Assembly: GCA_027619975.1 (NCBI GenBank) | Contig: JAQCGX010000026.1 | Coordinates: 1 to 49,668, forward strand | From: Nitrospinota bacterium | GTDB taxonomy: Bacteria; Nitrospinota; Nitrospinia; Nitrospinales; VA-1 | DNA: 49,668 nucleotides | Reading direction: 5' to 3' | Part shown: positions 22,081 to 25,717 of the stretch, in pieces | How positions within the stretch are numbered: the first letter of the stretch is position 1 | How the letters are laid out: every line of letters starts with the position of its first letter | The notes under the pieces: model-generated | What the model saw: only the letters and a program-made list of their open reading frames with translations | Databases searched by the model: none | What the model was told of the DNA's origin: nothing | Program-made: the position numbers and the translations under genes

Positions 22081-22962
22081 TCACTCAATATTCTGTAATT
22101 GCTCTCTGATTTTTTCCAGGTCGCTCTTAATTTCTATCACCATTTGGGAAACCTCTGAGTCGATGGTTTTGGAGCCGATGGTGTTGGTTTCCCGGTTAAT
22201 TTCCTGAATGAGAAACTCCAGTTTTCTTCCCATCGGTTGTTTGGTTTCCAGGAGGCTCCTGAATTGCTTGATATGACTTTCCAGGCGAATAATCTCTTCG
22301 GTGACGTCACAGCGGTCGGCCATGATGGCGGTCTCCTGAGCCAGGCGCTGAGGATCGGCTTCCACCCCATCCGTAAGCACTTTGATCCGCTCTGCGAGGC
22401 GTTCTTTGTAGCCGTTGATGGCTTCGGGTTGCCGGGTCTTAATGGATTCCCCATGTTTTTCTATAGAGTCCAATCGGGCTAATATATCCGTTTGCAGGTT
22501 TTCGCCTTCTTCTTCCCGCATTTTTATGAGGACTGACAAGGCATTGTCCACCGTATCCAGGATCAACTCTTCTCTGGAGGGGTCCAGAGCCAGCGGCTCA
22601 ACCTGGATCATATCTTTCATGGTCAGCAGGGATTTGATATCGATCCCGCCTTTCAGGCCGAGGTGGTCCTGGATTTTTTGAAACGCCTGATAGTATTGCG
22701 AAGCCAGGTTCAAATTGGGTTGAAGAACCAGATCTCCTGCATCGTCATTTAATTTTTCAATCGAAATGTTAAGGTCAAATGACCCTCGGGCGCAACGGGA
22801 TTTTATCCGTTTCTTGAGGGCCGCTTCCAGGGCCATCATGGATTTTGGAATCCGGGTGTTAATTTCAATATAACGATTGTTTACAGATCGAACTTCCGCT
22901 TTACAGGAATAATCTCCGTTCTCAGATTCGTGCCGACCAAAGCCGGTCATACTTTTTAGCAT
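22081..22962 (-). CDS. yicC: YicC/YloC-family endoribonuclease
   Basis: A 293-residue protein opening with the family hallmark MLKSMTGFGR and EVRSVNNRYIEI, ending with a DUF1732 domain (KLEFLIQEINRETNTIGSK). YicC homologues are oligomeric endoribonucleases implicated in small-RNA decay. Its start lies 6 bases after the reductase stop, and AAAGAGGA, its ribosome binding site, lies at the reductase end, so the two are tightly coupled. Confidence 0.93.
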   Translation of the reverse strand: MLKSMTGFGRHESENGDYSCKAEVRSVNNRYIEINTRIPKSMMALEAALKKRIKSRCARGSFDLNISIEKLNDDAGDLVLQPNLNLASQYYQAFQKIQDHLGLKGGIDIKSLLTMKDMIQVEPLALDPSREELILDTVDNALSVLIKMREEEGENLQTDILARLDSIEKHGESIKTRQPEAINGYKERLAERIKVLTDGVEADPQRLAQETAIMADRCDVTEEIIRLESHIKQFRSLLETKQPMGRKLEFLIQEINRETNTIGSKTIDSEVSQMVIEIKSDLEKIREQLQNIE

Positions 22963-22968
22963 TCCTCT

Positions 22969-25362
22969 TTAAACCTTTTCTATAATCATTTTGAAGTGGC
23001 CATTATCTTTTTCTAGCGACACCAGTTTATGCCCGTCATTCTGGACACTTCTGGGAACATTTTCTGCCGGTTCGCCATCGTCCAGAAGAACTTCCAGTGT
23101 GCTCCCAGATTCCATGGTTTCCAGTTTAAGTTTCGTTTTGACGTAGTTGAACGGACATTTCACTCCCAAAAGATCTATTTTGGCGGTTTCCTTTTTACCG
23201 TTTGATTTCTGTGGCGCCGATGCTTTCTTATCGGAAGGAGCCACACGAATTCTTAAGGTTTTCTCGGTCTGCATTTTGTCATTGACCCCTTTGCATTCTT
23301 CCAAGAGATCATGGGTTTCCTTGAGCCACCAGGCGGCCTTTTCCTGATCCGGGGATTCGAGGGCGTCATCATAATGATCGATCAGATCGGCATATTTGGG
23401 AGAGACGATTTCCATGTCCACGATCAAGGATTGAAACTTTGTCAGACACTCGCGGTCTTTATTGAAATCGATGCCTTCCGTTGCCAATAAGGCTCGAGAG
23501 CAAGCGACAAGCGTCTTGCAGGCTTTTTCCTGGGCATCCAGGTAATTTTCTTTTTCAAGGCTCAGTTTGCCCTGGAAATTTGCCCGGTCGGCATCAGACA
23601 ACAGGTTTTGAATCAAGTCCGTCATCGCACCAGCGCATTCCCCCTGGCCTCTGTCTTCAAGGGAAAATTTCTGCGTCGAGCCGTAATCGATATAGCTTTC
23701 AGGGGACTCTTCAATAGAAGGCAATGACAGTAATGGCGTTAGCAATTCCTTAAAATATTTTTTACCCTGCCGGTCGAAGTAATCACCGAAGGCTTCGCCT
23801 TCCTTTTTCCCGGCTTTAAAATCATCGATGGTCATTCGCACCACATCGGGGCCGCGTTTTGCGGGAACCTTGATGACCGGAGTTCCAAACACCGCTCCAT
23901 CCTCTGAAATCCGCCCGCCCAGAAAAATTTCGTAATGAGGGGTGAGCACGTCATTGACCTTTTTCGCTCCGCCATGAAACCCAATCGATGCGATATGATG
24001 CTGGCCGCAGGAATTGGGACAACCGCTGGCTTTGATGGACATGTGCTCCAGATCATCGGAAAAAGTAAAACCATTATTGTCCAGTTTGTCATTCAAATCA
24101 GCCACCAGACCTCTGGACGCGGTGATTCCTAAATTACAGGTTTCCGAACCCGGACAGCAGGTGATATCTCTGATTTCTTCCGTACCGGATCTGTGCAGGC
24201 CGACTTTTTTTAGCTCTCCATAAATCGCGCCCATGACATCTTCTTTGACCCACGGGATCATCATGTTCTGATTGACGGTATTGACAATTTCTCCGCCGGC
24301 ATAAGTTTCCGCAATTTTAGCGATGGCGCGGGCCTGAGGAATGTCCAGATCTCCGAGAAGCAATTTGATTTGCACGTTGAAAAAACCGGACTGTTTCTGC
24401 GATAAGGAGTTGCGTAATTTCCAGGCCAAAAACTCCGGATCGTTGTTAAATTCCGAATTTGGGGTGGAGGCCGGAATATTGGGAATGCTTTCCTCGGGCA
24501 CTTCGATCGGAGCATAGGGCTTGCCTTCCAGGGCGGCGTATTCCTCTTCAAAAAGTTCCTTGGTTTTTTCCAGACCCAGTTTATCCAGAACGAATTTAAA
24601 CCGGGCTTTGTTGCGGTTCACTTTGTCGCCATATTTGTCGAATACGCCGACGATGGCCTCACAAAGACTCAGCAGGTTGTCTGCAGGAACAAAGTCCGTC
24701 AACAATTTCGCCGCGTGGGGAAAGGAACCGAGTCCGCCGCCAAACCACACCTTGAAGCCACGCACGTCTTTGCCATTGTCCTGCTGAATGACGGCTTTCA
24801 AGCCGATGTCGTGAATGGGAGCCAGGCCACAGCCTGCACATCCGCCGAGGCTGATCTTGAACTTACGCGGCAGATTTTGGGTGAGCTGATGGCGCAATAA
24901 ATATCTATAGACCGCGTTTCCGTAAGGGGTGACGTCGAAGGCCTCATTGGAGCAGGTTCCCGCCTTATGGCAGGCGGTGACGTTACGTACGGTGTTGCCG
25001 CAGGCTTCGCGGGTGGTGACACCATGATCGGCGAGATCCTGCAAGCCCTGAGGTACATTCTTAATTTTTACATAGTGAAACTGAATGTCCTGCCGCGTGG
25101 TGACGTGCAAAATCCCATGCGAATATTTATCCGCGAAATCCGCCATACAGACTAACTGGTCAGAAGTAAATTTCCCCAGCGGCAGTTTGGTTCGCACCAT
25201 CTGCTCTTCGTCTTGCCGTTGGCCGTAAATGCCTTGCTGAAGTCGAAACCGCTTGAACTCATCCTCAGGCACTTCGCCCCGGGTGCGCCGTTCGACTTCC
25301 GCTGCAAAATCTTCAATTTCCCTTTTGACCACTTCGGGAATATTTAATGACTTAATATCCAT
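22969..25362 (-). CDS. Siroheme sulfite/nitrite reductase with a C-terminal TusA domain
   Basis: A 797-residue fusion. Residues 1-545 are a sulfite/nitrite reductase hemoprotein with two ferredoxin-like half-domains and two siroheme regions. The siroheme-[4Fe-4S] cysteines are C403-x5-C409 (CCPGSETCN) and C448-x3-C452 (CPNSCGQHH). Residues 560-700 are an alpha-helical segment starting SLEDRGQGECAG that I do not recognise. Residues about 728-797 form a TusA/SirA domain with the CP motif (GVKC736-P737) that carries persulfide in sulfur relay. The enzyme reduces sulfite to sulfide or nitrite to ammonia, presumably using ferredoxin. The TusA tail favours sulfur over nitrogen as substrate, but that is inference. 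RBS AGAGGTAA sits just before the ATG. Confidence 0.9.
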   Translation of the reverse strand: MDIKSLNIPEVVKREIEDFAAEVERRTRGEVPEDEFKRFRLQQGIYGQRQDEEQMVRTKLPLGKFTSDQLVCMADFADKYSHGILHVTTRQDIQFHYVKIKNVPQGLQDLADHGVTTREACGNTVRNVTACHKAGTCSNEAFDVTPYGNAVYRYLLRHQLTQNLPRKFKISLGGCAGCGLAPIHDIGLKAVIQQDNGKDVRGFKVWFGGGLGSFPHAAKLLTDFVPADNLLSLCEAIVGVFDKYGDKVNRNKARFKFVLDKLGLEKTKELFEEEYAALEGKPYAPIEVPEESIPNIPASTPNSEFNNDPEFLAWKLRNSLSQKQSGFFNVQIKLLLGDLDIPQARAIAKIAETYAGGEIVNTVNQNMMIPWVKEDVMGAIYGELKKVGLHRSGTEEIRDITCCPGSETCNLGITASRGLVADLNDKLDNNGFTFSDDLEHMSIKASGCPNSCGQHHIASIGFHGGAKKVNDVLTPHYEIFLGGRISEDGAVFGTPVIKVPAKRGPDVVRMTIDDFKAGKKEGEAFGDYFDRQGKKYFKELLTPLLSLPSIEESPESYIDYGSTQKFSLEDRGQGECAGAMTDLIQNLLSDADRANFQGKLSLEKENYLDAQEKACKTLVACSRALLATEGIDFNKDRECLTKFQSLIVDMEIVSPKYADLIDHYDDALESPDQEKAAWWLKETHDLLEECKGVNDKMQTEKTLRIRVAPSDKKASAPQKSNGKKETAKIDLLGVKCPFNYVKTKLKLETMESGSTLEVLLDDGEPAENVPRSVQNDGHKLVSLEKDNGHFKMIIEKV

Positions 25363-25386
25363 TACTTACCTCTTTGGTATCTTAAT

Positions 25387-25403
25387 GATTGAATGCTTCA
25401 ATC
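25387..25403. promoter_or_regulatory. Palindrome in the reductase leader
   Basis: GATTGAA-TGC-TTCAATC is a perfect 7-base inverted repeat 24 bases upstream of the reductase start codon. It could be an operator or an mRNA hairpin close to the ribosome binding site. Confidence 0.4.
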
Positions 25404-25420
25404 GGTAGTTTAATATAATT

Positions 25421-25511
25421 TAGACAAGATGTGAGGCCGAACTCTGACTCCCCTTGATTGTACTCCAAGGTCGGAGCCTGAAGAACTCACATTTGGATGA
25501 ATAGTTGTCTA
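25421..25511. repeat. Nested inverted-repeat element (possible structured RNA or DNA site)
   Basis: Four stems are nested in 91 bases: TAGACAA/TTGTCTA (25421-25427, 25505-25511), ATGTGAG/CTCACAT (25429-25435, 25486-25492), CTCTGAC/GTCGGAG (25442-25448, 25470-25476) and CTTG/CAAG (25453-25456, 25466-25469). The third pairs fully only as + strand RNA (one G-U). It lies between the leftward reductase and the rightward ICMT gene. I know no family that matches. Confidence 0.45.
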
Positions 25512-25717
25512 TCTTATAACAAAAATGCCCTAAAAAACAATCAAATGCAGATTTGAAAGTAAGAAAAATCCTTAAAAATTAAGCATTTGTGCGATTTAGT
25601 GCCATGCATCTTCTAAAACTCAATGGTAACTTGAGAATATACAGTAAAATATTTGAAAACTATAAGCTATGGGGAAATTATTGACCTGTCGAACTGAATG
25701 GGTCATTGGATGAAATT

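Follow-up and report, generated by a model that had tools for sequence, protein, structure and literature searches.

A siroheme sulfite reductase joined to HEPN and TusA domains in a Nitrospinota bacterium

Gene neighbourhoods that combine ThiS/MoaD-like, JAB, E1, SirA (TusA), PAPS reductase, sulfite reductase and O-acetylhomoserine sulfhydrylase genes were described in 2006 (Burroughs, Iyer and Aravind, 2006, Table 1, row 4e; PMC1779556), together with the proposal that the sulfur of sulfate or sulfite ends on the ThiS-like carrier and that SirA has a rhodanese-like role. The same source notes that in some actinobacteria sulfite reductase carries ThiS at its C-terminus as a fusion; we found no mention there of a fusion of TusA to sulfite reductase (SiR), nor any report of a SiR-HEPN-TusA fusion in the open-access literature. 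For Nitrospina, both NirA and Sir are listed and sulfate assimilation is complete (PMC3578206), and Sir is missing from most of the non-Nitrospinia classes (PMC10839748). The gene described here has, in other bacterial groups, the same partners around it as the row 4e system. SirA is a separate protein in that system as far as the source describes it, whereas here TusA is fused to SiR via a HEPN domain, and in the Nitrospinaceae the fused gene stands alone.

The window, the whole 49.7-kb stretch of DNA analysed, belongs to a 2.93-Mb draft genome of 72 contigs whose nearest named relatives are Nitrospinaceae. The gene (22969-25362, minus strand, as are all features below) is a single open reading frame with an ATG start and without an internal stop, and encodes 797 amino acids arranged as SiR, GECAG tail, HEPN, linker and TusA according to the open reading frame list, Pfam and AlphaFold2 model m311a0194e595. 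Pfam recognised NIR_SIR and NIR_SIR_ferr, two halves of each, and a single TusA domain. The full-chain model, built from an alignment of 40 relatives (mean pLDDT 89, pTM 0.80), places the end of the reductase near residue 545, keeps the tail ordered as far as roughly residue 570 and gives the GQGECAG motif (residues 571-580) a pLDDT of 69; it further shows five helices within residues 583-700, an unstructured linker at residues 704-723 (23194-23253, pLDDT below 50) and TusA at residues 726-795. A gene that is probably of the YicC type (22081-22962) starts 6 bp past the stop codon, and the same order is seen in two relatives (L032 and L034). The leader (25363-25520) contains a long hairpin that folds better than shuffled sequences (z -2.8). 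We considered it as a regulatory RNA and set this aside: it has no Rfam match and, by eye, no evident counterpart in relatives.

The preliminary description had read this gene as one chain of siroheme reductase, helical region and TusA, and the same three-part chain indeed occurs in other genomes. Nitrospinaceae genomes encode it with about 62-82% identity over its length, the middle domain is found in 60 of the 77 genomes of the phylum, mostly together with TusA, and the fusion is conserved in the Nitrospinales. Outside the phylum, a sample of 291 genomes yielded the full chain in nine families (G239, G101, G259, G284, G093, G242, G155, G214 and G089), to which a search with TusA added two (G279 and G138), giving 11. 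Recurrence of the chain in Nitrospinaceae genomes and in these 11 families shows that its parts were not joined by chance. It also rules out an assembly artefact: an assembly chimera or frameshift fusion, for which we found no support, would have to have arisen alike in many independent assemblies and is exceedingly improbable. SiR-HEPN enzymes lacking TusA are also common, including in Bacteroidota (Persicobacter, Aureibacter). On the reductase tree, the presence or absence of TusA has to change seven times or more, an approximate count given several long branches, so TusA has been gained or lost repeatedly.

The siroheme/4Fe-4S reductase spans residues 1-545 (23728-25362; Pfam NIR_SIR and NIR_SIR_ferr, Foldseek). 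Its best structural match is NirA of Mycobacterium tuberculosis (1zj8), followed by plant nitrite and sulfite reductases (NiR and SiR) and E. coli SiRHP. With NirA and the plant enzymes it has in common the core fold, the cluster cysteines and the SiR arginine/lysine pattern; those enzymes lack the GECAG tail, HEPN and TusA. The two cysteine pairs named in the preliminary description, C403/C409 (24136-24156) and C448/C452 (24007-24021), were correctly placed as cluster/siroheme ligands and are invariant in 40 of 40 relatives.

Preference for sulfite or nitrite in this enzyme class is governed by the second active-site position, which is Lys or Asn. The fused enzyme has LPRKFK, with K167 and K169 (24856-24864) invariant among the aligned relatives, while the plant NiR sequences in PDB alignments show Asn in place of the second lysine; the tobacco N226K mutant appears in the same list. 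The genome encodes two siroheme reductases, the fused chain and a 527-residue NirA with LPRKFN (L117, contig 1), which leaves the fused chain as its only sulfite-type one; CysH and CysD/CysN are encoded elsewhere in the genome. The gene following nirA encodes 275 residues and resembles FNT-type channels; we take it, from its sequence, to be a nitrite channel. The lysine pair in PRKFK, the sulfate-assimilation gene clusters of relatives and the separate NirA strongly support a sulfite-type reductase of sulfate assimilation, and make sulfite rather than nitrite the likely substrate, as the preliminary description had favoured. An assimilatory nitrite reductase would agree with the top PDB sequence matches, which are annotated as nitrite reductases. 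Such an enzyme should, however, show PRKWN or PRKFN rather than PRKFK, and the genome already has a NirA beside the presumed nitrite-channel gene, whereas the relatives' fused genes lie in sulfate-assimilation neighbourhoods. We rejected this identity on the difference between LPRKFK and the LPRKFN of the genome's own NirA, and consider it very unlikely.

The reductase is followed by a tail (residues 546-582, 23617-23727, delimited by structure prediction) that ends in G-x-GECAG, here GQGECAG. Its cysteine, C576 (23635-23637), is present in 40 of 40 aligned proteins, as are C403, C409, C448 and C452. Some shorter enzymes end at the motif, namely that on a Thermus oshimai plasmid (L059) and L118, L119, L120 and L129 (GRGECAV, EGECAA, EGECMA). 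C576 thus belongs to the reductase and needs neither HEPN nor TusA. L117 and L121-L127, reductases of the NiR type and others, do not have the motif. Segment 549-570 was predicted confidently only with the reductase present and was poorly ordered when folded without it, which suggests that it packs on the reductase. In the Thermus-type sulfite reductases L059, L118 and L119 the C-terminus falls exactly at GRGECAV, and the T. oshimai gene is clustered with cysH, sat and genes for siroheme.

The preliminary description had also pointed to cysteines in the middle region, and SLEDRGQGECAG, KACK, VACS and ECL are all found there (C576, C615, C621 and C639). A functional role for the last three is not borne out, since C615 occurs in only 1/39 relatives, C621 in 5/39 and C639 in 5/38; C690 is kept in 13/38. 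A relay via C615, C621, C639 and C690 was discarded for this lack of conservation.

The helical domain (residues 583-703, 23254-23616), which the preliminary description could assign to no family, is a HEPN/UPF0332-type domain. This identity is visible only through the family alignment and not from the single window sequence: on its own, the window copy matched nothing in Pfam or in a PDB sequence search, but Pfam HEPN (PF05168) matches the middle domains of 20 of 33 relatives (best E-value 2.4e-8), and one full-length relative (L085) passes the Pfam cut-off with 24.4 against 22 bits. A PDB search with the family profile led to 2hsb (UPF0332/HEPN, 9.8e-8) and to a further two HEPN proteins. 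Folded separately (pLDDT 86), the domain again has 2hsb as its top Foldseek match, with a TMt of 0.80 and a probability of 1.00 but an E-value of only 6.7e-3, and HEPN structures make up the majority of the first ten matches. A match of this segment to a known domain had been named beforehand as an outcome that would speak against the original reading, and for the middle segment it applies, since the segment is HEPN-like. It shares its fold and family-profile match with HEPN/UPF0332 proteins such as AF0298 (2hsb), and differs from them in being part of a metabolic enzyme and in lacking RX4-6H. This nuclease motif is absent from the window protein and from most relatives, so that an RNase role appears unlikely.

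The C-terminal TusA domain with its CP motif, C736-P737, was recognised correctly from the start: Pfam TusA (PF01206) matches residues 728-796 with an E-value of 2e-20 in the whole protein (72.8 bits, cut-off 28.6), and Foldseek pairs the chain end with E. coli TusA (3lvj, TMt 0.84). The domain (residues 726-797, 22972-23187) belongs to a CPxN subfamily by alignment. Although it has the fold and the Cys-Pro motif in common with E. coli TusA and YedF, its motif is CPxN[YF] as against the CPxP of usual TusA proteins, and it does not reach the curated NCBIfam cut-offs for TusA (PRK00299, 23.9 against 78 bits) or YedF (43.6 against 79 bits). No other TusA domain was found in the source genome. Cys736 (CPFNYVK, 23155-23157) is invariant in the 17 fused copies aligned.

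Most close homologues carry the TusA tail, the opposite of what would have weakened the earlier reading. Natural variants exist nonetheless: G007 and G008 have Tyr for Cys (KYP instead of KCP), the domain is absent from the enzyme in G009, G010 and G012, and no TusA match was obtained in G011. The reductase tail and HEPN are retained. A replacement TusA was sought in G009, G010 and G012, and the only TusA-fold proteins there lack the cysteine. Three genomes are uninformative for TusA, one because of a run of N (G057) and two because of contig edges (G022 and G044). Because relatives with the Cys-to-Tyr change or without TusA keep the reductase, some lineages can do without the TusA step. L130, L131 and L132 are small TusA-fold proteins that have no Cys-Pro motif and come from Nitrospinales genomes with no fused TusA.

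Gene neighbourhoods place the fused enzyme among sulfur genes outside the phylum. In other bacterial groups the fused gene adjoins cysH, cysD and cysN (L066, L067, L069 and L072), occurs with JAB and ThiF (L067 and L070) or with ThiS, ThiF and a DsrE-like gene (L066), and has a Cys/Met-metabolism PLP enzyme and cysK nearby; JAB lies close to it in five of the nine fused outsiders (G239, G155, G093, G101 and G284). Pfam confirmed ThiS, ThiF, DsrE2, two JAB, one Cys/Met PLP enzyme and one PAPS reductase, and the other neighbours presumably are what their sequences suggest. The CPxN subfamily also occurs as a separate small protein in clusters of the JAB-SiR-ThiS-CysK type (L175 and L178), so that the earlier link of this TusA to sulfite reductase holds both in fused form, in many lineages, and in unfused form inside SiR/ThiS/JAB clusters. 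Since the neighbours of the fused gene match row 4e as presented in PMC1779556, the association of SiR with TusA has been known since 2006 and the TusA-HEPN fusion is its fused variant. In the Nitrospinaceae the fused gene lies apart from cys, JAB and ThiS genes; in the source genome, SiR, SirA, ThiS, JAB and E1 genes do not share one neighbourhood, JAB and cys genes being on other contigs, whereas relatives in other bacterial groups do have them together.

A gene of about 190-200 codons directly follows SiR-HEPN(-TusA) in at least five genomes (L077:8147-8716, L080:5210-5815, L068:8500-9072, L078:8002-8604 and L128:2332-2904; also L079 and L081). Compared with the first member, the products show 27-35% identity, and 18 columns of their alignment are invariant; two members tested had no Pfam match. 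These genes are an unnamed partner family of the SiR-HEPN reductase.

For this marine, nitrite-oxidising Nitrospinaceae bacterium we favour, with a probability of roughly 0.55, an assimilatory sulfite reductase that carries a non-nuclease HEPN domain and a TusA domain that would take up product-derived sulfur and hand it on. The enzyme would act after CysD/CysN and CysH, and the reduction of sulfite to sulfide at its siroheme is the strongly supported step of the scheme. HEPN would serve as a helical module, probably for packing or for binding a partner. Attached through a flexible linker, TusA would probably load Cys736 with sulfur that stems from the product of the reductase and pass it to the sulfur-using partners of the cell; a hand-over within one chain, as the preliminary description proposed, is a plausible hypothesis. 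In lineages with the full cluster, gene neighbourhoods point to an E1-activated ThiS-like carrier with a JAB protease as the recipient, which would feed cysteine synthase or O-acetylhomoserine sulfhydrylase. Sulfite reductase yields sulfide (S2-), but the sulfur on TusA is sulfane sulfur (S0); loading TusA directly thus requires a disulfide or an intercepted intermediate. Either sulfide might attack a cysteine in oxidised form, such as a disulfide of Cys736, or a partly reduced intermediate might be caught; for the second route C576 is the best candidate, yet it is also kept without TusA. Because some relatives lack the relay, it would be accessory.

The same relatives bear on a simpler possibility, which we consider the less probable one but a serious competitor: an ordinary sulfite reductase releasing free sulfide to CysK, with HEPN and TusA serving only to stabilise, oligomerise or tether and TusA carrying no sulfur. 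The Cys-to-Tyr and TusA-less variants within the same order (G007/G008 and G009-G012) fit this account and count against a TusA relay, as do the many TusA-less SiR-HEPN enzymes of other bacteria, some of them beside cysH, cysD and cysN. The relay is also weakened by the distance of the Nitrospinaceae gene from cys, JAB and ThiS genes, and the shorter enzymes ending at GECA fit the simpler account. That account sits poorly, however, with a TusA cysteine that never varies in the remaining fused copies, which span 11 distant families, and with the recurrence of a separate TusA of the same subfamily in SiR/ThiS/JAB clusters. Alternatively, C576 might itself be the primary sulfur acceptor, its tail reaching into the siroheme pocket and passing sulfur on, to TusA where present. 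The idea is borrowed by analogy from DsrAB-DsrC, in which a cysteine tail takes sulfur from a siroheme reductase, although DsrC is a separate protein and the fused enzyme is only remotely similar to the Dsr subunits. Such a role would suit a cysteine that is as conserved as the cluster ligands, that persists even where the enzyme stops just behind it, that the NiR-type enzymes and the other SiR relatives examined do not have, and whose tail is predicted to be ordered only alongside SiR. The motif is modelled with a pLDDT of only 69, however, its conservation would also fit a structural or redox-switch function, and assimilatory sulfite reductases normally complete the six-electron reduction alone, so we regard this reading as unlikely. 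Just as doubtful is its extension to the clade, by which these reductases would not simply release sulfide: C576 would enter the siroheme pocket and take the sulfur, and TusA-fused members would pass it within the chain to Cys736 and on to protein carriers, keeping it protein-bound from sulfite to cysteine or homocysteine.

Should the relay by TusA fail, what stands is a corrected annotation, that of a widespread fused form of sulfite reductase with a HEPN middle domain, and the invariant C576 is an unexplained cysteine in a well-studied enzyme class. Should it work, sulfate would be assimilated with protein-bound sulfur instead of free, toxic sulfide, and this would concern abundant marine nitrite oxidisers and many other bacteria.
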